A DNA stretch of 64,000 nt from an uncultured Anaerolineae bacterium (GCA_937124585.1 CAKZKT010000037.1:1-64000); one strand, 5' to 3'. Shown: positions 29,071 to 42,312, counted from the stretch's first letter. The notes: generated by a model not told the origin, from the sequence alone. Numbers and translations are program-made.

Positions 29071-30474
29071 ATGAGTATTGTTTCAGCAACTCAACGCGCG
29101 GTGATGTTTCGCCTGGCCGGCTGGGGACGGAGCCTGGCGCGCGCGGCGCGGTTATGGCCGCTGGCCCTCCTCCTTCTTTGGATTGCGCTGGCGCTTCCGG
29201 CCGATGGCTACGGAGGCCAGGCCCGCATTGACCTGGTGTTGCGCCAGGCCATCGGCGGCGATGGCTTTCGGCTGGTGGCCTGGGAGGCCCAGGCGCTGGT
29301 CGGCGAAGCGCGCGATCTGATCGCAGGGCCGGCCACCGGGCTCAGTGCGGCGGCTCAACACGATCTCGTGGTGACGTATTTCGATGCCATCGCAGCGATC
29401 GGTCGGCTGGAGGCCCAGATCGAACGCATCTACGCCGACCCCAAACAGGCCGATCCCGGCGCCGCAGCCGCGCCGCTGCAGGCCGAGCTGGATCGGCTGC
29501 GCGGCGAGCAGGCCCGTCGTCGGCCTGCGGTCGAGCAGATCCTGAGCCGCCAGGTCACGACGATCCTGGCAGAGGAGGGGCTGACGACGCTCGGCCTGGT
29601 GTGGCCGCCGGTCAGTTTTCAGTTCGCCGAGAGCCCCAACTATTTGATCGTCTCGCCGCGGCATCGGATCGCTGTCGAAAAGGGCATCTATCTCGATCCG
29701 ACGCTGTCGGTCGCCAGGATGGAGCAGATCGAGCGACAAGTCGAGGCAGGGCTGGGCGTCAGCGCGCTGGTCGAGGGCACGGGCGGCTTCTCCTCCTACC
29801 CGACGATGATCGTCGAGTATGCTGGGCTGGAGTGGGTCATCAGCACCATCGCGCACGAGTGGGTTCACACCTACCTGGCGTTCCGACCTCTGGGCTGGCG
29901 CTACTACGACAGTGGCGCCATGCGCACGATCAACGAGACGGTCGCCTCCATCGTCGGCGATGAGGTGGGCCGGCGGGTGGTCGAGCGCTTTTATCCGGAG
30001 AAGGCGGCGCCGGCCTCATGGCCGCAGCCGCGTTCGCTGCGGCCGGATCCGGCGGCGAAGCCCGAGTTCAGCTTCGGCGTGTTCATGCGCGAGACGCGGC
30101 TGACGGTGGACAAGATGCTGGCCGCGGGAAAGATCGAGGAGGCCGAAGCCTATATGGAGGCGCGGCGCAGAGAGCTGGCCGAGCACGGCTATTTCCTGCG
30201 TCGGCTCAACCAGGCCTATTTCGCGTTCCACGGCTCCTATGCGGTCGGCCCGGCAGCCACCGATCCGATCGGCGGCAAGCTGCGCCTGCTGCGCCGCCAG
30301 GCGGGCAGCCTGGCCGAGTTTGTGCGCATCGTGTCGAGATTTACGACGGCGGCCGATCTGGACGCGGCATTGGGCCAGGCGACCGAGCCTGAACGGCCGC
30401 CCAGGGCTGCTGCAGGTTATGCGTTGCTGCAAGCTTCGCCGGGGCCGGGCTTCGCCAGTTTGTCTGCCAGGTGA
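29071..30474 (+). CDS. Membrane-anchored zinc metalloprotease-like protein (HEWVH)
   Basis: A 467-residue protein with one N-terminal membrane segment (LWPLALLLLWIALALP, ~28-43) and a large external part. A zincin motif HEWVH is at 262-266 (IAHEWVHTYLAF), and NETVASIVGDEVG about 30 residues later offers the third ligand Glu. Upstream is a coiled-coil-like region (IGRLEAQIERIYAD...LQAELDRLRGEQARR). The fold looks like a gluzincin, but I do not recognise a characterised family. The start is fixed by the promoter at 29035-29064. The gene stands alone; its 3' end overlaps the convergent PFK gene by 58 bp. Confidence 0.75.
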   Translation: MSIVSATQRAVMFRLAGWGRSLARAARLWPLALLLLWIALALPADGYGGQARIDLVLRQAIGGDGFRLVAWEAQALVGEARDLIAGPATGLSAAAQHDLVVTYFDAIAAIGRLEAQIERIYADPKQADPGAAAAPLQAELDRLRGEQARRRPAVEQILSRQVTTILAEEGLTTLGLVWPPVSFQFAESPNYLIVSPRHRIAVEKGIYLDPTLSVARMEQIERQVEAGLGVSALVEGTGGFSSYPTMIVEYAGLEWVISTIAHEWVHTYLAFRPLGWRYYDSGAMRTINETVASIVGDEVGRRVVERFYPEKAAPASWPQPRSLRPDPAAKPEFSFGVFMRETRLTVDKMLAAGKIEEAEAYMEARRRELAEHGYFLRRLNQAYFAFHGSYAVGPAATDPIGGKLRLLRRQAGSLAEFVRIVSRFTTAADLDAALGQATEPERPPRAAAGYALLQASPGPGFASLSAR

Positions 30475-32630
30475 CGCCAGCGCAGGAACGCCTGTTGGCG
30501 CGGTCGGCCGTTCTCCATATCCATGGCAGCCATTGCTTCGGCGTAGGGCGTGATTTTGATGCCGCGCTGCGCTAGCCCGATCACGTTCACCTCATCGCGG
30601 CCGGCGCTGATGTCGTCCATGATCTGCTGCGCGGCGCGCGCGCCCAGCCGCGCGCCCTGGATACGGTCGAAGGCTGTCGGCACGCCCCCACGCTGGAGAT
30701 GTCCCAGGATGCACACGCGCACGTCGAATGCGCCTTTCGCCTCGGCGTCAATGACCCGGCGCACGAAATCGGTGTCGTAATAGGGCGAGGATTCCTCCGC
30801 GATGATCACGATCCCTAGCTTTTTGCCGCTGTCGAAGCCGCGACGAAGCATCTCGGTATCGCGCTGCAAATCGTGGAGCGAGATGCCGTCTTCGGGCAGC
30901 AGTTCCATCTCCGCGCCGGTGGCGATGCCGGCGGTGAGCGCTAGGTAGCCGCAGCGCCGACCCATCACCTCGACGATGTAGACGCGCCGCGCGGCGCTGG
31001 CGGTGTACTTGATCTTGTCCACCGCGTTGACGATGTTGTTCAGCGCAGTGTCCGCGCCGATGGTGAAGTCGGTGGCGGGCAGGTTGTTGCCGATGGTGGC
31101 CGGCACGCAGATGATGGGGATGCGCAGCGCCGGATGAAGCGCGCGCGCGTCCAGCAGGCGCCCCACCTCGCGATAGGTTTCCAGCCCGCCCACGGCGATC
31201 AGGCCGCGAATGTCCCAGGCCTGGATGTTGTGGGCGATCTCCGCGATCTCATCTGTGGTCAGCTCGTGGCGCACCGCGCCCAGTTCCGAGCCGCCCAGCC
31301 CCATCCAGTTCTGCACGTCCATCCAGCCGATTTCGACCAGATCGCCCTGTGCCAGGCCGCCGAAGCCGTAGCGCGCGCCGATGACATCCTGACCGGCATT
31401 GCGCGCAATGCGCAGCGCGGTGCGCAGGATCGCGTTCATGCCCGGCGCATCCGGTCCGCCCGTCAGCAGGCAGATGCGGCCGCGATCCTTCAGCGCCTCC
31501 TTCGGCTCGGCCCGGCTGAGCGCTTTGACCAGATCGAGCGCGTCGAGGAAGCTACGGCCGCGCAGCCTCAGCGCCTCTTCGAACTGGCCCTGATCCATCT
31601 GAGCGTTCACCTCCTGGCTCTTGGCAACGACCTCGGTCAGCGGGGTGGCCTGCGGTTGATTGTTTATCAGCCCGATCATCACCGGGGTGGGATCGGGGCC
31701 GGCGATGTAGTTGACCGCGGCCTCGCCCAGCCGGGAGGAGAGGACGCGATCGAACGCGGTGGGCGAGCCGCCGCGCTGGACATGGCCCAGGACGGTCACG
31801 CGACCCTCAACACCCATGCGCGTCTTCAGGATCTCGGTGATCGTCTCGGCCCGGATCGGCAGGCCATCGCTGTGCCGCGCGCCTTCGGCGAAGATGATCA
31901 GGTCGTGGCGACGGCCGGCCGCGCGACCGCGTTTGAGCGCCTCGACCATGCGGTAGTGCCAGCGCGGATCGAGTTCCTCTTCGGGGATGAGGACCCAGTC
32001 GGCGCCGGTGGCCAGGGCGCTCATCAGGGCCAGGTAGCCGCAGCGCCGGCCCATCACCTCGACGACGAAGGTGCGCTGGTGCGAGTCGGCCGTGGAGCTG
32101 AGTTTGTCCACCGCCTCGACGATGGTGTTGAGTGCGGTATCGGCACCGATGCTCATGTCGGTGCCGTACTGGTCGTTGTCAATTGAGCCGGGCAGCCCCA
32201 CGATCCGGAACGGCGCCGGCTCGTGCGCTTTTTCCGCCGGGATGGTGCCCTCTGCGGCCAGCGCCTTCAGATGATCCGGCCACTCCTGATAGAGCAGCAA
32301 CGCACCGGTCAGCGAGCCGTCGCCGCCGACCACCACCATGCCGTCAATGCCGGCCCGCACCAGGTTGCGCGCGGCCTGACGCCGGCCGGCGACGGTGCGG
32401 AACGCCTCGGAGCGGGCCGTGCCGATAATGGTGCCTCCGCGCTGGAGGATGCCGCCGGCGCTGCGCCAGTTGAACGGCTCGAATTTGTTCTCGCCGTCAA
32501 TGACGCCCTGCCAACCCTCGTGGATGCCGATCACTTCGATGCCGATGTCGAGCGCGCAGCGGGCGACCGCGCGAATGGTGGCGTTCATGCCCGGCGCATC
32601 GCCGCCGCTGGTGATGATGCCGATGCGCAT
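30417..32630 (-). CDS. pfkA: 6-phosphofructokinase, double-domain (eukaryote-like)
   Basis: An ATP-dependent phosphofructokinase of 737 residues with two fused PFKA domains; bacterial PFKs are usually ~320 residues. The N-half (1-~385) is catalytic: GGDAPGMNA, GTARSEAF (Arg for substrate), GGDGSLTGA (the Gly typical of ATP users), GSIDNDQYGTDMSIGADTALN with the catalytic Asp, and MGRRCGYLAL. The C-half (~390-737) repeats the fold with GGPDAPGMNA but has VGGLETY in place of GGDGS and PATIGNNLPATDFTIGADTALN, where Asn replaces the catalytic Asp. These are the changes seen in the regulatory C-half of eukaryotic PFK. GGAGGAGG precedes the ATG, 18 bp after the flippase stop, so it is co-transcribed with glycan genes. 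Confidence 0.92.
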   Translation of the reverse strand: MRIGIITSGGDAPGMNATIRAVARCALDIGIEVIGIHEGWQGVIDGENKFEPFNWRSAGGILQRGGTIIGTARSEAFRTVAGRRQAARNLVRAGIDGMVVVGGDGSLTGALLLYQEWPDHLKALAAEGTIPAEKAHEPAPFRIVGLPGSIDNDQYGTDMSIGADTALNTIVEAVDKLSSTADSHQRTFVVEVMGRRCGYLALMSALATGADWVLIPEEELDPRWHYRMVEALKRGRAAGRRHDLIIFAEGARHSDGLPIRAETITEILKTRMGVEGRVTVLGHVQRGGSPTAFDRVLSSRLGEAAVNYIAGPDPTPVMIGLINNQPQATPLTEVVAKSQEVNAQMDQGQFEEALRLRGRSFLDALDLVKALSRAEPKEALKDRGRICLLTGGPDAPGMNAILRTALRIARNAGQDVIGARYGFGGLAQGDLVEIGWMDVQNWMGLGGSELGAVRHELTTDEIAEIAHNIQAWDIRGLIAVGGLETYREVGRLLDARALHPALRIPIICVPATIGNNLPATDFTIGADTALNNIVNAVDKIKYTASAARRVYIVEVMGRRCGYLALTAGIATGAEMELLPEDGISLHDLQRDTEMLRRGFDSGKKLGIVIIAEESSPYYDTDFVRRVIDAEAKGAFDVRVCILGHLQRGGVPTAFDRIQGARLGARAAQQIMDDISAGRDEVNVIGLAQRGIKITPYAEAMAAMDMENGRPRQQAFLRWRHLADKLAKPGPGEACSNA

Positions 32631-32648: not shown

Positions 32649-35600
32649 TCACGCTCTGGATAGTTTGAGGCGCGGCAGCCGCGCCCGCAACACTGCGAAA
32701 TCCTCGCCGCGGAACACGCCGAGCGCCAGCAGCGCGCCGAGATAGGCCAGGAAGCCCGGTACGAGCGCCGGCAATGTCGGCAGGCCGAGCCGTTCCAGGC
32801 CCCAGGTGACGCCAATGTTGGCTGCTGCGGCCAGCAGCGGGCTGCCGGCCAGGCGCAGCCAGGGGATGGCCGCGACATGACGGTGCACTGCCCAGGCGAA
32901 CGGAATGAATAGGGACAGCTCGGCCGGCGTCAGCAGCGCGGCCGAGGCAATGTAGCCGAAGCGCGGTACCAGCAGCAGGTTGGCGATGCCGGTGAAGAGG
33001 ACGCCGATCAGAAACGCGCGCGTGAGAAAACGCTGCTGGTTCACCGAGATCAGCACGTATTGGGTCACCGAATTGACCCACCCGATCGGGATGGACCAGA
33101 TCATGATCTGCAGGGCCAGCGCCGAGTTGGGCAGATAGGCCGCGCCGCCCAGGATGCGGATGAGCGGGGTGGCCAGGAAGGTGCACGCGACCGCGATCGG
33201 CAGCGCCAGGATGAAGAGCATCTGCGCGGCCAGCCGGTAGCCGCGCGCCAGCGCGTCCTCTTTGCCCTGGGCGTAGCGGCTCAGCATGGGAAAGAGCGCC
33301 AGGGTGAAATAGCTGGGGATGACGTTCAGCCCGTCGAGGTACTTCGTGGCGGCCGAGAAGATGCCCACCGCCGCCGCGCCGGAAAACCACTGCAGGATGT
33401 ACAGGTTGATGCGCCAGAAGACGCTCGCCAGCAGATGATTGATCATCAGCGGGCCTGATTCGGCCAGCATGTAGCGTTGCAGCGGCCAGTCCCACGTCCA
33501 GCCGCGGCGCAGCCGGTTCAGCGTCCGGTCGACCACACCCGCCTCCGATGGCAGCGGCGCCACCGGCAAGACGGTCTTGCGCAGCACCAGAGCGAGCCAC
33601 ACCACCTGCACGATGTTCATGATGAGGGACACGCCGGCCAGGCCGATAAAACCCCATTCCAGCGGCGGCAGCAGCACCAGCGCGCCGAGCGCCACCTTCG
33701 CCACCGCGGTCGCCGCGGCAATACTGGCCGGATGCTCCATCTGCTCGTAGGCGAAAAAGACCGCGCTGATGGCATCGGCGATGTTGGCGAACAGCAGCGC
33801 GGCCACAAACAATGCGATGGCCTCCACCGTGCCCGCGGCCAGCTGGCCGCGGCTCTGATACGCCAGCACCACCAGCGCCATGACCGGCAGACTCGCCAGC
33901 CAGAGCAGGGTGCGCAGGCCGAGCACATTGGCCAGGTAACGTCGGGCCTGGCCGCAGTCTTTGGCCACGTCTCGGGTGAGCAAAGTGCCGAGGCCGAAGC
34001 GGGTGACGATTTCGAAGGTGGTGTAGAAGGTGATGGCGAATGCGTACGCGCCTTCGCCGGCCGGGCTCAAGATGCGCAGCCGCAGCATGGCGAACGCGAA
34101 ATCGAGGCCGCGCGTCATCAGCGCAGTGGCCATCTGCACGGCACTGTTTTTTGCCACGCGCGCCACCTCGCTGCGCTCCCCGCGGTAGAGGCGACCCCAT
34201 GCCCACCAGCCTGCCAGCAGCAGCAACGTGATGCCGGCCAGGAAGCTGCTGTACAGGCCCAGGATCACCGGCCGCGGAGAGTAGACGAAGCGCACCGTCC
34301 ACTGGCCGGCGCGCGGCAGATAGACCGCACGAAACGCGCCGTTGGCCCGGTAGATGGGCAACTGCTGCTCCACCGCCTCGCCCGTGGAGGTCACTCCTTC
34401 GCCCTGCGCGCCGAACGGCCGCAGATAGGCCTTCCAGCCGTCCGCGAAGCTGTCGGTCAGCACCAGCCAGCCGCGATCGCTCAGGTTGATGTCCACGAAG
34501 ACCTCGCGCGGGGTGTAACGGCTGATGCTGACGTCGCGCGTTTGCGGCGACGCGGGCGGCGGCAACGCCTCGGCCGCGATCCCCTCCACCACGACAACTT
34601 GCCTGGCATCGAGCTGCTGCAGCGCGTCGAGCGCGGCCTGCTGGTCGGCTGCGGCCACGGCCTGAGGCACGATGAACGCGCGCGGGAATGCCCGTCGGTT
34701 CTCGAAGACCTTGACCTCGCCGTCGTAGACCAGCTTGTAGCTATCGTTCGGAATGGCGTGCGTGGTGACGACGTACTTCACGCCGAGCAGGCTGAGCAGC
34801 GGATGGTCGAGCACGTCGAAGTTGGGGCGGTCGCCGAGCCGAACGTAGAGCGCAGCGATCCGATTGTACAGCAGCTCGCCCTGGGGATGGATCCGCTTCA
34901 TGTACTCGACGTACTGTCGGGGGATGATCGAGTCGTAGCCGCGCACGTCTTCCAGGCCATAGGTCATGGGCGAGTTGGCGTTCAGCGTCTTCTCGTCCGG
35001 GCCATCGAAACTGGTCAGCCGCCAGGGCTGTGCCGGATCGCGCTGCGCCTGCAGCCAGGCGATGACCGGCGGCTTGAACTCCAGCAATGACCGATCGGTC
35101 GCCGGATTGAAGCCGTGGCCGAAGAGCCAGAGGTCGGCGGCCAGCACGATGATGGTGGCCAGCGGCCAGCGGCGGGCCTGGGGCGATGAGATGACAGGAT
35201 GGCCGACTGACAGGGTGGATCTGTTATCTTTCCTTATTTTCCTGTTTCCTGGTTTCCGGCCTGCCCACCAGAGCACGCCGCCCGTCAGGAGGGCCATCAG
35301 GCCGAATTTCGCCAGCACGCCGGCCTCATAGCTCCATGCCATGGCCGCGTCGGCGAAGCCGTTGGCGCGCGCCAGATCGGACGAGGCCAGCAGGCGATCG
35401 CCCAGCGCGATGAACGGCGCCGGCATGACTATGCTCAGCGCCACGAGGGCCAGGCTGCTCACGCCTGCAGCCAGGCTGACGAGCCCCAGCGCGCCGGCCA
35501 GCCGCGGCAGCGTCAGCCATGGGTGCCGATCGGCCGGCGCGTGCTGTGCCTCCAGCAGCGCGTTGACCCCAAATCCGGCCAGTGCGGTCATGCTCAGCGT

Positions 35601-36923
35601 GTAGGGATAAACCCAGCGGAAGGCGGAATGCAGCTGATTGTAGCCCGGCAGGAGATAGAACGGGATCGCGTAGAGCGGTGTGCCGAATGCGAACAGGAGC
35701 GCCAGCACGGCCAGCAGCGCGAAGCCGAGGATTGTGAAGCCGGGCAACTCGGAAGAGGGCGTCCCTCGGCGCAGTCGCGTGACCAGGGCCGCCACAGCCA
35801 CTCCCGCCAGCGCCAGGGTCAACAGTCCCAGATAGTTGGCGCCCTCGACATAATTTTTGACGCCCCAGTCAATCGTGTGCAGCGGCTGGCCGAATGCATT
35901 GCGGGTGACCGGGACCCAGGTGAAGCGCCAGATATCGAAATATGCGTGATGGGTGGGGTTGCCGAAAAAGTCGGGCAGCAGGAAGGTGATGATCTGGCGG
36001 CTCGGCCAGGCCCACTCGCGTACCTGTTGCAGGGACGCCGCGCCCTCCCGGAAGCTCTGGCGCACCAGGTCATAGAGCGGCGCGATCTGCACCGCGCCCA
36101 GGGCCAACCCCAGGCCGACCATGGCACCCAGCCAGAGCACCAGCCGGGACAGCGGCCGCCAGCTGCGCAGGCGGCGCCACGCGCCGATCAATCGCCATCC
36201 TGCGTAGAGCGCGCTGACGAGCAGCACATAATAGGTGATCTCGACATGGCCGGCCAGCGTCTGGACGCCCAGGAAGAGCGCGCCGGCGATCACATAGGGC
36301 ACCGGCGAATAGGCCACGACGCCTTTCTGCTCTTGTTTGGCGACGATGATCTCGATCATCGCCAGGATATAGGGCAGCCAGGCTGCAGCCGCGATCATCA
36401 TGGTGAAATTGACACTGACGATGTAGAAACCGGAGAAGGCATAGGCGAGCGCGGCGACGACCGCGGCGGGCCGGCGTTGGCCCAGCACGCGCGCGAAGAG
36501 GAACATGCCCGCCGCGGCCAGTCCGAGTTGCAGCGCGGAGAAAACCCCATAGGCCAGCCAGAGGGGTAGGATGTAAAAAAGCAGGCTAAACGGATAAAGC
36601 GCGGAATGCTGACCGGCTGCCAGAAACGGCACACCTGCAAAGATGCGGGGATTCCAAAGGATGTCGCCGGGCCGGCCTGCTGCCAGCTGCTCGATGATGA
36701 ACGTCTTCCACGGCAGGTTCTCTAGCACCAGGTCGCTGATCAGCGGGTTGTAGGGGACGCGCACACCGAGCTGAGCGGCATAGCTCTGCCACGGCTGGTA
36801 CTGATACAGATTGTCCGCGGGCAACAGCGTCCGCCCGCCGAATGTCTGGGGCCAAAACCAGAGCAACGGCAGCAGCAGCAACGCCAGCCCGATGACCAGA
36901 TCGTATTTTCGCTCCGGTTTCAC
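32649..36923 (-). CDS. YfhO-type membrane protein fused to MOP-superfamily polysaccharide flippase
   Basis: A 1424-residue polytopic membrane protein in one uninterrupted frame. Residues ~1-915 match the YfhO architecture: an N-terminal segment GGRTLLPADNLYQYQPW, a dozen or more membrane spans, and an external domain (YVEYMKRIHPQGELLYNRIAALY, SDRGWLVLTDSFADGWKAYL). YfhO proteins are linked to glycosylation of lipoteichoic acid or surface glycans. Residues ~920-1424 are a complete Wzx-like flippase with about 14 spans (starting VAKNSAVQMATALMTRGLDFA). At residues ~555-578 a short AT-rich, repeat-like segment encodes RKPGNRKIRKDNRSTLS between spans. It lies 69 bp after a dolichol-phosphate-mannose-synthase-like gene, which fits a lipid-linked glycan pathway. 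Confidence 0.85.
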   Translation of the reverse strand: MKPERKYDLVIGLALLLLPLLWFWPQTFGGRTLLPADNLYQYQPWQSYAAQLGVRVPYNPLISDLVLENLPWKTFIIEQLAAGRPGDILWNPRIFAGVPFLAAGQHSALYPFSLLFYILPLWLAYGVFSALQLGLAAAGMFLFARVLGQRRPAAVVAALAYAFSGFYIVSVNFTMMIAAAAWLPYILAMIEIIVAKQEQKGVVAYSPVPYVIAGALFLGVQTLAGHVEITYYVLLVSALYAGWRLIGAWRRLRSWRPLSRLVLWLGAMVGLGLALGAVQIAPLYDLVRQSFREGAASLQQVREWAWPSRQIITFLLPDFFGNPTHHAYFDIWRFTWVPVTRNAFGQPLHTIDWGVKNYVEGANYLGLLTLALAGVAVAALVTRLRRGTPSSELPGFTILGFALLAVLALLFAFGTPLYAIPFYLLPGYNQLHSAFRWVYPYTLSMTALAGFGVNALLEAQHAPADRHPWLTLPRLAGALGLVSLAAGVSSLALVALSIVMPAPFIALGDRLLASSDLARANGFADAAMAWSYEAGVLAKFGLMALLTGGVLWWAGRKPGNRKIRKDNRSTLSVGHPVISSPQARRWPLATIIVLAADLWLFGHGFNPATDRSLLEFKPPVIAWLQAQRDPAQPWRLTSFDGPDEKTLNANSPMTYGLEDVRGYDSIIPRQYVEYMKRIHPQGELLYNRIAALYVRLGDRPNFDVLDHPLLSLLGVKYVVTTHAIPNDSYKLVYDGEVKVFENRRAFPRAFIVPQAVAAADQQAALDALQQLDARQVVVVEGIAAEALPPPASPQTRDVSISRYTPREVFVDINLSDRGWLVLTDSFADGWKAYLRPFGAQGEGVTSTGEAVEQQLPIYRANGAFRAVYLPRAGQWTVRFVYSPRPVILGLYSSFLAGITLLLLAGWWAWGRLYRGERSEVARVAKNSAVQMATALMTRGLDFAFAMLRLRILSPAGEGAYAFAITFYTTFEIVTRFGLGTLLTRDVAKDCGQARRYLANVLGLRTLLWLASLPVMALVVLAYQSRGQLAAGTVEAIALFVAALLFANIADAISAVFFAYEQMEHPASIAAATAVAKVALGALVLLPPLEWGFIGLAGVSLIMNIVQVVWLALVLRKTVLPVAPLPSEAGVVDRTLNRLRRGWTWDWPLQRYMLAESGPLMINHLLASVFWRINLYILQWFSGAAAVGIFSAATKYLDGLNVIPSYFTLALFPMLSRYAQGKEDALARGYRLAAQMLFILALPIAVACTFLATPLIRILGGAAYLPNSALALQIMIWSIPIGWVNSVTQYVLISVNQQRFLTRAFLIGVLFTGIANLLLVPRFGYIASAALLTPAELSLFIPFAWAVHRHVAAIPWLRLAGSPLLAAAANIGVTWGLERLGLPTLPALVPGFLAYLGALLALGVFRGEDFAVLRARLPRLKLSRA

Positions 36924-37991: not shown

Positions 37992-39440
37992 ATGACTGTT
38001 TCGATCTGTCTCGGTTTTGTCCCCTCTTATCGTTTTCAATGGACTTCCTGGACGGCCAGGATGCGGGAAGACAGCTATCGTGCGCTGGCGGCCCTGCCGG
38101 GCGTGGAACGGGTCGTGATGCCTCAGCCCACACCTGACGGGAAGATGCTGGATGCCGCGGCCGGCCTCACTCCCTTCGGCGCTGTGCACGACCTGGATGA
38201 GGCAGAGACGGTCGCCGAGTACTTCCGCCGGCAGGGGGTAGACGGCCTGGTGTTCTGCCCGCTCGACTTCGGCGACGAGCGCTCGGCTGCGAAGGTCGCC
38301 GAGAAGCTGGGCGTGCCCGTCCTGCTCTATGCCACGAAGGAGCCGCCCGCCCTGGAAGGCCCGGCATTGGCCCGCCAGTCCGATTCCTACTGCGGCAACC
38401 TCTCGATGGCCTCCGCGCTCTATCGGCGCAAGATCCCCTTCCATTTCGCCGGCATCTTCTTCCCGGACGAGCCGGAGTTTGCGGCGGCCGTAGAGCCGTT
38501 CGTGCGCGCCGTGGCGGTCGTCAAAGGCTTGCGGGGCGCCAGGGTCGGCCAGGTGGGCGTGCGGCCGGCCACCTTCGAGACGGTCGGCTACGACGAGCAC
38601 GCGCTGGCGCTCAAATTCGGTCAAAACGTGATCTACGCCAATCTGGACGACATCGTGGACATGGCTCGACGCTACGCGGACGACGATCCGCAGGTGGTCG
38701 AGACCGTGACCGGCGTGCAGGCGGAATTCAAGGAGATCACGGTCGGCCCCAGCTATCTCCTGAACGCGGCCAAATTGGAGCTGGCGCTTACCGAGTTCTG
38801 GCGTCGGTCGAAGCTGTCGGCGATGGCCGTGCAATGCTGGCCCGCCATCCAGCGCATGATGGGCATCTCAGTTTGCAACACTTACAGCCGGCTGACCGAT
38901 CGGGGCATGCTCACCGCCTGCGAGGCGGACGTGCTCGGCGCGGAGGCGATGCTGATCTCGCATCGGGTGGCGCTGGGGGCCACGGTGCCGCACTTCATTG
39001 ACTGGACGATCCAGCATCGGGAGAATCCCAACTGGCTGTTGGCCTGGCATTGCGGCAACGCGCCCGCCTCGCTGGCCGCCGACCCGGAGCGGGTTGCGCT
39101 TCGCTCGCGCAAAGACATGGCCGGCGCGCTGCCCGTCCCCGAAGCGGATCCGCAGGCCGGCCTGAACCAGTTCCAGATCCGGCCCGGCAAAGTCACCCTG
39201 TGCCGCCTGGCCGAATACGACAATCGCTGGAAGCTGCTCATCACCACCGGCGAAATCATCCCCTCGGACGAAACGCTGGCGGGCACCTGGTCATGGATCG
39301 AGGTGAAAGATCACGCCCGGCTCTATCGCACGCTGGTCGAGGAGGGATTCGTCCACCACGCCAGCATGATCCACGGCGACTGGTCGGCCGCACTGCTCCA
39401 GGCATGTAAATTCCTGGACATCACCCCGGTGGTAGTTTGA
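37992..39440 (+). CDS. L-fucose/L-arabinose isomerase-family protein
   Basis: A 482-residue cytoplasmic aldose-ketose isomerase-like protein of the FucI/AraA fold. An N-terminal Rossmann-like domain (GVDGLVFCPLDFGDERSAAKVAEKLGVPVLLYATKEPP) is followed by a central region with AVQCWPAIQRMMGISVCNTYSRLTDRGMLTACEADVLGA, where the Glu would be a metal ligand as in this family. A C-terminal domain has HCGNAP and EGFVHHASMIHGDW. It lacks close similarity to canonical FucI or AraA, so the sugar cannot be named. It heads an operon with a PfkB kinase, a class II aldolase and an Ldh2-type dehydrogenase, implying aldose to ketose, phosphorylation, then aldol cleavage. Confidence 0.8.
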   Translation: MTVSICLGFVPSYRFQWTSWTARMREDSYRALAALPGVERVVMPQPTPDGKMLDAAAGLTPFGAVHDLDEAETVAEYFRRQGVDGLVFCPLDFGDERSAAKVAEKLGVPVLLYATKEPPALEGPALARQSDSYCGNLSMASALYRRKIPFHFAGIFFPDEPEFAAAVEPFVRAVAVVKGLRGARVGQVGVRPATFETVGYDEHALALKFGQNVIYANLDDIVDMARRYADDDPQVVETVTGVQAEFKEITVGPSYLLNAAKLELALTEFWRRSKLSAMAVQCWPAIQRMMGISVCNTYSRLTDRGMLTACEADVLGAEAMLISHRVALGATVPHFIDWTIQHRENPNWLLAWHCGNAPASLAADPERVALRSRKDMAGALPVPEADPQAGLNQFQIRPGKVTLCRLAEYDNRWKLLITTGEIIPSDETLAGTWSWIEVKDHARLYRTLVEEGFVHHASMIHGDWSAALLQACKFLDITPVVV

Positions 39441-39450
39441 TTCATGACGC

Positions 39451-40392
39451 ATGACCATCAACATGAGCCACATCCAAGTCGTCGGCCTGGGCATGGCCAC
39501 CCTCGACATCCTGGTGCGCCTCACCGAGCTGCCCACCTGGGAGGAGGGCAGCCACTTCGGCGCCATCGCCATTGACGGCGGCGGGCCGGTGGCGACGGCT
39601 ATCGCTGCCGTGGCCCGGCTGGGCGTGCCGGCCGGCTTCATCGGCACCTGTGGCAACGACCGCCTGGGCGAGATCAAGCGGCAAACGCTGATCGAGTGCG
39701 GCATTGACGTCAGCCGCATGGTGCGTCGGCCGGCACCCGAAAACGAGATCGTGCTGGTGAGCGTGCACGAGCAGACCGGCGAGCGGGTTTTCACCGGTTC
39801 CCGTGCTTTTCAGGACTATCAGCTCACGGCCGACGAGATAGATCGCGATTACATCCTGGCAGCCGATGTGCTGCACCTGGATGGCTATCACGCGGACGCT
39901 GCGGCGTCGGCCGCGGCCTGGATGCGCGCGGCCGGGAAATGCGTGGTGCTCGACGGTTCGGCCACGCGGCGGCCGATCCCACCGAAGATGGCCGACCTGG
40001 TGCGCCGGGCGAACGTGCTGATCTGCGGTGTCGGCTTCGGCGCCATGTTGACCGGCCGCGCCGACCCGTGGGAGATCGGCCGGGCCATCCTCGACATGGG
40101 GCCGGATGTGGTCGTTCAGACCGAGGGCAAAGCCGGCAGCTACACGGTCACGCGCGACGAGATGTTCCATACACCCGCTTTTGATGTGGATGTCGTGGAC
40201 ACCACGGGCGCCGGCGATGTCTTCCATGGTGCCTACATCGTGGGGATGCTCCGTGGCTGGGAGGTACGCCGCATCGTGCAGTTCGCCACTGCGGTCTCAG
40301 CACTCAAATGCACCGGACTGGGCGGCCGACGGCCCATCCCCTGCTTCGACCAGGTGATCGCGTTCCTGCGCGAGCGGGTTGGCGATTGGTAG
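39451..40392 (+). CDS. PfkB/ribokinase-family carbohydrate kinase
   Basis: A 313-residue cytoplasmic sugar kinase. The PfkB signature 2 is DTTGAGDVFHGAYIVGML near residue 250, with the catalytic Asp in GAGD. The N-terminus VVGLGMATLDILVRLTELP and GGGPVATAIAAVARLG are typical of ribokinase-like ketose kinases. It begins 10 bp after the isomerase gene, and the aldolase follows by 15 bp, so it most likely phosphorylates the ketose product at C1. Sulfofructose kinase, 5-dehydro-2-deoxygluconokinase and fructokinase are all in this family; sequence alone does not choose. A second ATG at 39463 is possible. Confidence 0.85.
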   Translation: MTINMSHIQVVGLGMATLDILVRLTELPTWEEGSHFGAIAIDGGGPVATAIAAVARLGVPAGFIGTCGNDRLGEIKRQTLIECGIDVSRMVRRPAPENEIVLVSVHEQTGERVFTGSRAFQDYQLTADEIDRDYILAADVLHLDGYHADAAASAAAWMRAAGKCVVLDGSATRRPIPPKMADLVRRANVLICGVGFGAMLTGRADPWEIGRAILDMGPDVVVQTEGKAGSYTVTRDEMFHTPAFDVDVVDTTGAGDVFHGAYIVGMLRGWEVRRIVQFATAVSALKCTGLGGRRPIPCFDQVIAFLRERVGDW

Positions 40393-40407
40393 AGAGGAAC
40401 TTTCTTC

Positions 40408-41256
40408 ATGGCTTTGGTTTCAGTCAAACAAGCGTTGCTGGCAGCGCAGGCGGGCGGCTATGCGCTGCCTCTGTTCGACACCTTCGACATGGCCGCGACC
40501 GATGGCATGTTTCAGGCCTTCGAGGCGAAGCGCGCCCATGCCTGCATCGGGCTCTACGGCGGCTTCTTCGAGCGGCCGAACGCGCGTGCCAATGTCGCCT
40601 ACATCCGGGAATGCGCAGCGACGGCCAAAGTCCCGGTCTCGCTCATGCTCGACCATGGCGCGAGCTTCGAGCAGTGCGTCCTGGCCATCTCGCTCGGCTT
40701 CACCGACGTGATGTTCGACGGCTCCAGGCTGCCGCTGGAGGAAAACATCGCTCAGACCCGGCTGGTGGTGCGCGCGGCGCACGCAGTGGGGGTGGCGGTG
40801 GAGGCAGAGCTGGGACATGTGGGCAGTGGCCGGGAATATCAGAGCTTCGGCGCCAAACGCCTCGGCTTTACCGACCCCGCCGCGGTCGAACGTTTTGTGG
40901 CCGAGACGGGCGTGGATTTCCTGGCGGTCGCCATCGGCACCGCGCACGGCGTTTACCAGGGCGAACCGCAGCTCGATCTCGATCTGCTCCGCGAGATCCG
41001 GCGCCGGGTGGAGATCCCGCTCGTCATGCACGGCGGCTCTGGCCTGTCGGATGCGCAGTTTCGCGGCGCGATCGAGGCCGGCATCGCCAAAGTCAACGTG
41101 GCGACCGAGCTGTTCATGACCTCGGCGCAGCGCATCACCGAGGCCGCACGCGCCAGAGAGCTTTCCTATTTCGATATCTCCCGCATCGCCGCGACCACTT
41201 TCCAGGAACGCTGCGGTTTCTACATTGATCTGTTCGGCGCGGCAGGAAGGGTCTGA
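40408..41256 (+). CDS. Class II (zinc) ketose-bisphosphate aldolase
   Basis: A 282-residue class II aldolase of the Fba/GatY/IolJ family. The expected motifs are LMLDHGASFEQC with the catalytic Asp and zinc His, VEAELGHVGSG, VAIGTAHGVY (zinc His), VMHGGSGLSD (zinc His) and KVNVATELF. It would cleave the phosphorylated ketose to dihydroxyacetone phosphate plus an aldehyde. AGAGAGGAAC lies upstream of the ATG. Its position after the isomerase and kinase makes a dedicated sugar pathway more likely than glycolysis. Confidence 0.88.
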   Translation: MALVSVKQALLAAQAGGYALPLFDTFDMAATDGMFQAFEAKRAHACIGLYGGFFERPNARANVAYIRECAATAKVPVSLMLDHGASFEQCVLAISLGFTDVMFDGSRLPLEENIAQTRLVVRAAHAVGVAVEAELGHVGSGREYQSFGAKRLGFTDPAAVERFVAETGVDFLAVAIGTAHGVYQGEPQLDLDLLREIRRRVEIPLVMHGGSGLSDAQFRGAIEAGIAKVNVATELFMTSAQRITEAARARELSYFDISRIAATTFQERCGFYIDLFGAAGRV

Positions 41257-41259
41257 GCC

Positions 41260-42312
41260 ATGCCCACATTCAGCGCACCGCATCTGATCGCGATCGGCCG
41301 GCGTCTGTTGCAGGCGGCCGGTGTCCCTGCGGAGACGGCTCAGCTCGTCAGCCGCTCGCTGGTCGAGGGCAACCTGACGGGCCACGACTCGCACGGCGTG
41401 ATCCGCCTGGCGCAATACGTGCGCGCCATCGAGCGCGGCCAGATCAACCCCCACGCCGAACTGGAGATCGTGCGTGAGACTGCTACCACCGCGTTGATAG
41501 ACGCGCATTGGGCGTTCGGTCAGGTCGCCGCGCGGCGGAGCATGGAGGTCGCCATCGCCAAAGCTCGCCAGTACGCCGTGGCTGCGGTCGGGCTGCGCAA
41601 CTCGGCGCACATCGGCCGTCTGGCCGATTACGTGCTGATGGCGGTCGAACACGGCATGATCGGTTTCATGACGTGCAACTCGTCCCTGCTCACCGCGCCC
41701 TACGGCGGCGTGGATCGCGTTTTCGGCACGAACCCGTTCGCGTACGCGTTCCCGCGCAGCGGCACGCCCTTCCTGATGGATTTCGCCACCTCCGTCGTCG
41801 CAGAGGGCAAGCTGCGAGTGGCGGCGGCGAAAGGCGTCTCCATCCCGGAGGGCTGGATCCTCGACAAAGAACGCAAACCGACCACCAATCCGGCCGATTT
41901 CTACGACGGCGGCGTGCTCCTGCCGCTGGGCGGACACAAAGGCTACGGCCTGTTGATGGTGGCCGATCTGCTGGGCGGCGCGCTGACCGGTCACGGTTGC
42001 ACCGTCCTGCCGGAGCACACGACCGGCAACGGCGTCTTCATGATGGCGATTGACATCGCGGCCTTCTGCACGGTCGAAGAGCTGACTGCGACCGTGGATC
42101 GGCTGGCGGCTGCCATCAAAGCGGGTCGCACCGCGCCGGGCTTCGACGAGATCCTGATCCCGGGCGAGCCGGAGGCGCGCTCGAAGGCGCAGCGCGAACG
42201 CGACGGCATCCCCCTGGCGGAGACGGTATGGCAGGAGATGGTTGCCGTCGCGGCGCAGTATGGGCTGTCGGAGGAGATGTTGCGCGCTGCAGAGATTACA
42301 GATACGGCTTGA
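41260..42312 (+). CDS. Malate/L-lactate/ureidoglycolate dehydrogenase-type oxidoreductase (Ldh2 family)
   Basis: A 350-residue NAD(P)-dependent dehydrogenase of the Ldh2/MDH2 fold, distinct from Rossmann dehydrogenases. The family motif GHDSHGVIRLAQYVRAI near residue 43 supplies the catalytic His. VGLRNSAHIGRLADYVLMA, GTNPFAYAFP and GYGLLMVADLLGGALTGHG also match. Members oxidise 2-hydroxy acids (malate, lactate, sulfolactate, ureidoglycolate). It could act on a hydroxy acid derived from the aldehyde that the aldolase releases; that is inference. The gene starts 3 bp after the aldolase and ends 17 bp inside the convergent aminotransferase gene. Confidence 0.85.
   Translation: MPTFSAPHLIAIGRRLLQAAGVPAETAQLVSRSLVEGNLTGHDSHGVIRLAQYVRAIERGQINPHAELEIVRETATTALIDAHWAFGQVAARRSMEVAIAKARQYAVAAVGLRNSAHIGRLADYVLMAVEHGMIGFMTCNSSLLTAPYGGVDRVFGTNPFAYAFPRSGTPFLMDFATSVVAEGKLRVAAAKGVSIPEGWILDKERKPTTNPADFYDGGVLLPLGGHKGYGLLMVADLLGGALTGHGCTVLPEHTTGNGVFMMAIDIAAFCTVEELTATVDRLAAAIKAGRTAPGFDEILIPGEPEARSKAQRERDGIPLAETVWQEMVAVAAQYGLSEEMLRAAEITDTA

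Follow-up and report, generated by a model that had tools for sequence, protein, structure and literature searches.

The window analysed was a 64,000-nucleotide stretch from an uncultured Anaerolineae bacterium (GCA_937124585.1, CAKZKT010000037.1:1-64000). Its minus strand carries, at exactly 30417-32630, an open reading frame with an ATG start and a TAA stop, preceded on its 5′ side by a well-matched ribosome-binding site (AGGAGGAGG). The encoded protein is assigned as a tandem 6-phosphofructokinase (PFK), with the following features.

30417..32630, minus strand: tandem ATP-dependent 6-phosphofructokinase, 737 residues (open reading frame; TIGR02478, 813.3 bits, residues 2-727; AlphaFold model, pLDDT 92.6, pTM 0.92)
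31638..32630, minus strand: N-half, predicted catalytic, residues ~1-331 (PF00365, 352.8 bits; GGDGS, PGSIDND, MGRR and GHVQRGG kept)
32211..32291, minus strand: N-half-specific insert of ~22 residues within 114-140, also found in eukaryotic N-halves and absent from C-halves and single-domain PFKs
31485..31637, minus strand: interdomain linker, residues ~332-382, with a conserved LRGxSF pattern common to human PFK
30420..31484, minus strand: C-half, pseudo-catalytic by its residue map and predicted regulatory, residues 383-737 (PF00365, 283.8 bits)
31173..31193, minus strand: VGGLETY in place of GGDGS (D103, G104 and S105 lost)
31065..31103, minus strand: PATIGNNLPATDF in place of PGTIDND (catalytic D127 to G, D129 to N)
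30690..30692, minus strand: C-half equivalent of R252 (R647), kept in all seven sampled members of class A (defined below) and replaced by Q in the eukaryotic sequences and in almost every bacterial tandem PFK outside class A

The start-codon side of the gene is occupied, on the same strand, by a 1424-residue YfhO/polysaccharide-flippase-like membrane protein and a glycosyltransferase, and the stop-codon side by a converging open reading frame lacking a Pfam match and an acetyltransferase. Nothing in this neighbourhood suggests a dedicated glycolytic operon. The membrane protein (32649-36923, minus strand) is a single open reading frame in which a YfhO-like membrane region is fused to a polysaccharide-flippase-like domain. 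Separately, a run of genes at 37992-42312 on the plus strand is reminiscent of a sulfosugar or related sugar pathway. It encodes an isomerase weakly similar to sulfoquinovose isomerase (144 bits against a cut-off of 700), a PfkB-type kinase, a class II ketose-bisphosphate aldolase and a malate/lactate dehydrogenase-family protein whose match to sulfolactate dehydrogenase falls below cut-off.

With two PF00365 domains in 737 residues, the protein departs from the pattern of bacterial PfkA, in which a single PFK domain spans ~320 residues. Its match to TIGR02478 (NCBIfam 6PF1K_euk) runs as one stretch over profile positions 2-741 of 744 and exceeds the curated cut-off of 708.4 bits; given an E-value of 1.9e-244, a chance match is not an issue. 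The best sequence matches in the PDB were human liver and platelet PFK (PFKL and PFKP), at ~636 bits over the full length, and single-domain bacterial PFKs reached only ~253 bits. The AlphaFold (AF2) model could be overlaid end to end on human PFKP R-state chains, with TM scores of 0.95-0.97 and an rmsd of ~1.6 Å.

Residue states were mapped in E. coli PfkA numbering across 37 tandem PFKs (31 bacterial and 6 eukaryotic). The N-half of the 737-residue protein retains G11, R72, D103, G104, S105, D127, D129, R162, M169, R171, E222, R243, H249 and R252, such that every active-site position checked is kept, allowing for S at T125, as in eukaryotic N-halves, and W at Y41. The phosphate donor indicated by the motifs GGDGS and PGSIDND is ATP and not pyrophosphate. 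Pyrophosphate-dependent PFKs are recognized by D104 and K124, and the N-half has G at both positions. The N-half would be an active kinase using ATP. By contrast, the C-half is changed at positions 11, 103, 104, 105, 108, 127 and 129 (including P11, L103, E104, T105, G127 and N129) and keeps the sugar-phosphate contacts R72, T125, R162, M169, G170, R171, E222, R243, H249 and R252. Given that D103 was kept in none of the 37 sampled C-halves, catalysis by this half is predicted to have been lost throughout; R162 was present in 37 of 37 and E222 in 35 of 37. Position 127 varies by group, being G in the 737-residue protein, N or an unchanged D in other bacteria and S in eukaryotes. On this pattern, the C-half would be a pseudo-kinase: its ATP pocket and catalytic aspartates are gone, but the arginines, glutamate and histidine that grip the sugar phosphate remain. 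The first-pass annotation had described one 737-residue frame with two PFKA domains, an N-half with all catalytic motifs and a C-half in which PATIGNNLPATDF and VGGLETY signal catalytic loss. Each element of this description was borne out, the two C-half motifs lying at 31103-31065 and 31193-31173, respectively.

Two further PFK-A genes are present in the source genome, on contigs C67 and C81. Both encode GGDD and PKT(I/M)DND, the established signature of pyrophosphate-dependent PFKs, and the tandem enzyme is therefore the only PFK-A with an ATP signature in that genome. The products of C67 and C81 belong to the same PFK-A superfamily but are single-domain proteins with the pyrophosphate-donor signature. 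Strict replacement of a single-domain ATP-PFK by the tandem enzyme was not supported, since genomes G667, G720 and G749 carry both. The idea that the tandem gene arose recently from a single-domain gene beside it was discarded: in G749, the single-domain PFK whose gene lies ~2 kb away clusters with Meiothermus-type PFKs and with neither half. Single-domain PFKs of the ATP type from Chloroflexota and Meiothermus (loci L145, L146, L157, L131, L140; L118) have GGNGS or GGGGS at the place where D103 is expected, with DND kept. A second, distant PFK-A open reading frame lies near the tandem gene in several Chloroflexota (L020, L024, L027, L029, L032, L036, L098, L101 and L104).

The distribution of such proteins was assessed in two bacterial phyla, reached through three loci from one contig scan. 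Of the 301 genomes sampled from the phylum of the source genome, 32 had a TIGR02478 match above cut-off. In the other phylum, identified by way of Lentisphaerae bacterium WC36, the count was 15 of 289, and none of 14 control genomes had such a match. Strong full-length matches were found in 105 of 298 genomes of the class to which the source genome belongs. A 747-residue "6PF1K_euk" protein, Cagg_2702 of Chloroflexus aggregans, with homologues in many Chloroflexota, was reported by Kawai et al. in 2021 (PMC8004040). The initial view that bacterial PFKs are normally single-domain has to be narrowed accordingly: within this phylum the fused form is nothing out of the ordinary, and it had already been noted in 2021. 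Some genomes carry two tandem PFKs, one class A-like and one of the other Chloroflexota class (L080 and L113 in G667; L082 and L115 in G682; L083 and L114 in G634).

The source assembly is in 164 contigs, which leaves room for an assembly chimera or eukaryotic contamination in the draft genome. However, the G+C content of the tandem gene (0.674) and its GC3 (0.86) are both in line with the flanking genes, orthologues occur at 73-79% identity in five other genomes of the same family, and tandem PFK genes are also present in genomes assembled as a single contig, as well as on the complete chromosome of Lentisphaerae WC36. Contamination is ruled out by these observations, and an artefact of either kind is vanishingly improbable. 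Near relatives at 75% identity were identified in Chloroflexi bacterium HGW-Chloroflexi-1 and Anaerolineae bacterium CG2_30_64_16, which assigns the source genome to Chloroflexota.

To place the two halves, the 31 bacterial and 6 eukaryotic tandem PFKs were split and analysed together with 16 single-domain PFKs in IQ-TREE under LG+C20+F+G4. The six eukaryotic sequences, all animal or fungal, were taken from PDB chains and comprised human PFKL and PFKP, two yeast subunits and two Komagataella subunits. All tandem PFK halves formed one clade (support 100/100). The 37 N-halves, bacterial and eukaryotic together, formed one clade (100/99), as did the 37 C-halves (100/100). Separate trees of N- and C-halves had been proposed in the first-pass annotation, which offered both a relative of the ancestor of eukaryotic PFK and a parallel fusion as readings; bacterial halves did not pair off to the exclusion of eukaryotic halves, and the grouping of N-halves with N-halves and C-halves with C-halves supports the former. 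Under the latter, bacteria and eukaryotes would each have fused two PFK genes and lost C-half catalysis separately. Fusions of tandem paralogues are common, and the C-half substitutions do vary by group, as described above for D127, both of which would fit such a history. Nevertheless, forcing the eukaryotic N- and C-halves into one clade was rejected (dlnL 190, p-AU 1.6e-7). The spacing between E. coli positions 105 and 125 also parts N- from C-halves in all groups, at 40-42 residues in 37 of 37 N-halves and 26 in 37 of 37 C-halves, compared with 19-20 in the 16 single-domain PFKs; this indel signature, a model-free character, is fully consistent with a shared fusion. Furthermore, the linker (LRGxSF) is homologous between the 737-residue protein and human PFK. 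Identity with human PFKL was 49% for N-half to N-half, 40% for C-half to C-half and 29% for N-half to C-half. Parallel fusion is thus refuted by the AU test and the indels and is considered highly improbable; the bacterial and eukaryotic proteins descend from the same fusion event.

The 737-residue protein belongs to a clade termed class A here (L001, L082, L086, L090, L092, L093 and probably L085). This clade fell outside a grouping of the eukaryotes with the 24 other bacterial tandem PFKs, with support of 100/99 for N-halves and 100/98 for C-halves, and the same split was recovered (100/100) when N-halves were analysed on their own with single-domain PFKs as root. With single-domain PFKs and the opposite half serving as root, the earliest divergences of the N subtree, and likewise of the C subtree, fell among bacteria. 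A clade of bacterial N-halves apart from eukaryotes was rejected (p 0.0098 and 0.0106 in two tests). The equivalent result for C-halves was not significant (p 0.18), and the long branch leading to the C-halves could distort rooting inside that subtree. Eukaryotes and the Lentisphaerae-phylum sequences grouped together in the N-half tree with moderate support (87/89). Reciprocal concatenation of the halves agreed with the half trees; given that each half is used twice, its support is inflated and was not relied on. On a sampling of opisthokonts and two bacterial phyla, the fusion was most likely present in bacteria before the eukaryotic lineage of the fusion.

The same fusion might instead have been invented in early eukaryotes and passed by horizontal transfer to Chloroflexota and the Lentisphaerae-containing phylum. 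The C-half test, in which a separate bacterial clade was not rejected, and the thin eukaryotic sampling of six opisthokont sequences leave some room for this order of events, and a 2025 review of the superfamily documents cases in which PFK has moved horizontally both ways (PMC12203962). It is nonetheless judged unlikely, given the first splits among bacteria in both subtrees, the rejection of bacterial N-half monophyly at p ~0.01 and the spread of tandem PFKs through the class. An origin in bacteria followed by passage to eukaryotes, with class A as the deepest branch sampled, is favoured but not settled. In the C-half, R252 was kept in 7 of 7 class A sequences, and Q was found in 6 of 6 eukaryotes, 9 of 9 sequences of the Lentisphaerae phylum and 13 of 15 other Chloroflexota; position 171 is R in the 737-residue protein and G in eukaryotes. 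Given these residue differences and its separate deep branch, class A was counted as a variant and not just another member.

The eukaryotic two-domain ATP-PFKs (human PFKL, PFKM and PFKP; yeast PFK1 and PFK2) share with the bacterial protein the tandem architecture, linker, N-half insert, catalytic N-half, degenerate C-half and fold over the whole chain, as well as, from the half trees, the fusion event. They differ in that the bacterial host has no recognizable 6PF2K, that the bacterial C-half keeps the equivalents of R171 and R252 where eukaryotes have G and Q, and that the regulatory tail of human PFK and the N-terminal glyoxalase-like domain of yeast PFK are, respectively, absent or much shorter and absent. 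Single-domain PfkA (E. coli, Geobacillus, Meiothermus) resembles the N-half in PFK-A fold and active site, the N-half being 43% identical to E. coli PfkA, but lacks the N-half insert, and every subunit is catalytic. Cagg_2702 is likewise a double-length PFK from the same phylum and constitutes the prior art found; the study describing it drew on transcriptomes alone and contained no analysis of evolution or residues (PMC8004040). Class A is deeper than most other Chloroflexota tandem PFKs in the sampled set. In parts of the 2025 superfamily review, tandem duplication is described for eukaryotes only, as a feature opening the way to complex regulation of eukaryotic PFK, and all solved bacterial ATP-PFK structures are given as single-domain (PMC12203962). 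A literature search, confined mostly to non-subscription sources, returned no paper dealing with how bacterial tandem PFKs arose in evolution.

In eukaryotic PFK, the F′ site is a former fructose 6-phosphate (F6P) pocket that binds sugar phosphate without catalysis, as set out in the same review (PMC12203962). Given the retained sugar-phosphate shell and the lost catalysis, the bacterial C-half is predicted to bind in the same way. Its most likely role would be to sense a sugar phosphate and adjust the activity of the N-half, in the manner of the eukaryotic F′ site. The 6PF2K domain (PF01591) was found above cut-off in none of 20 tandem-bearing genomes, in a search whose 14 controls were all prokaryotic, with no eukaryotic positive control. 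The ligand is therefore probably not fructose 2,6-bisphosphate, and an effect of that compound, if assayed, would be unlikely to reflect physiology; F6P or fructose 1,6-bisphosphate is the best guess. The phosphate-binding shell of the F′ site is nonetheless kept in the C-half. Residues of the nucleotide effector site are kept at R21 and R25 in the N-half and at K154, E187 and K213 in the C-half, and position 154 of the N-half is S. With half-sites paired as in E. coli, one composite effector site looks intact and one eroded. The sequence match to human PFK stops ~10 residues before the C terminus of the tandem protein, and the human chains are ~25 residues longer, such that the human regulatory C-terminal tail appears absent or much shorter, with no full counterpart. 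Given the eroded half-site and this difference in the tail, regulation may differ from that of human PFK.

The loss of the C-half ATP pocket, the missing human regulatory tail and the missing synthesis of fructose 2,6-bisphosphate would also suit a C-half acting only as a structural scaffold, standing in for a second active subunit to complete the quaternary structure and sensing no ligand. A pure scaffold would, however, need none of R72, R162, M169, R171, E222, R243, H249 and R252, all of which are kept, R162 in every sampled C-half and E222 in nearly all. The scaffold role is accordingly rated a minor possibility.

Taken as a whole, the protein is very probably a two-domain ATP-dependent 6-phosphofructokinase of eukaryotic type that shares its founding duplication and fusion with the PFKs of human and yeast, with an active N-half and a C-half that most likely serves as a sugar-phosphate sensor. 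The wider scenario is evenly balanced in our estimation: the pseudo-kinase-regulated tandem PFK of animals and fungi would stem from a bacterial duplication and fusion, Chloroflexota-like on present sampling, and would have been acquired ready-made, with class A preserving an early stage when the inactive half still read ordinary sugar phosphates, before fructose 2,6-bisphosphate was recruited. Should the fusion prove to be a common one that predates eukaryotes, living bacterial relatives would allow a direct test of the sequence in which duplication, the loss of catalysis in the C-half and the recruitment of fructose 2,6-bisphosphate took place.
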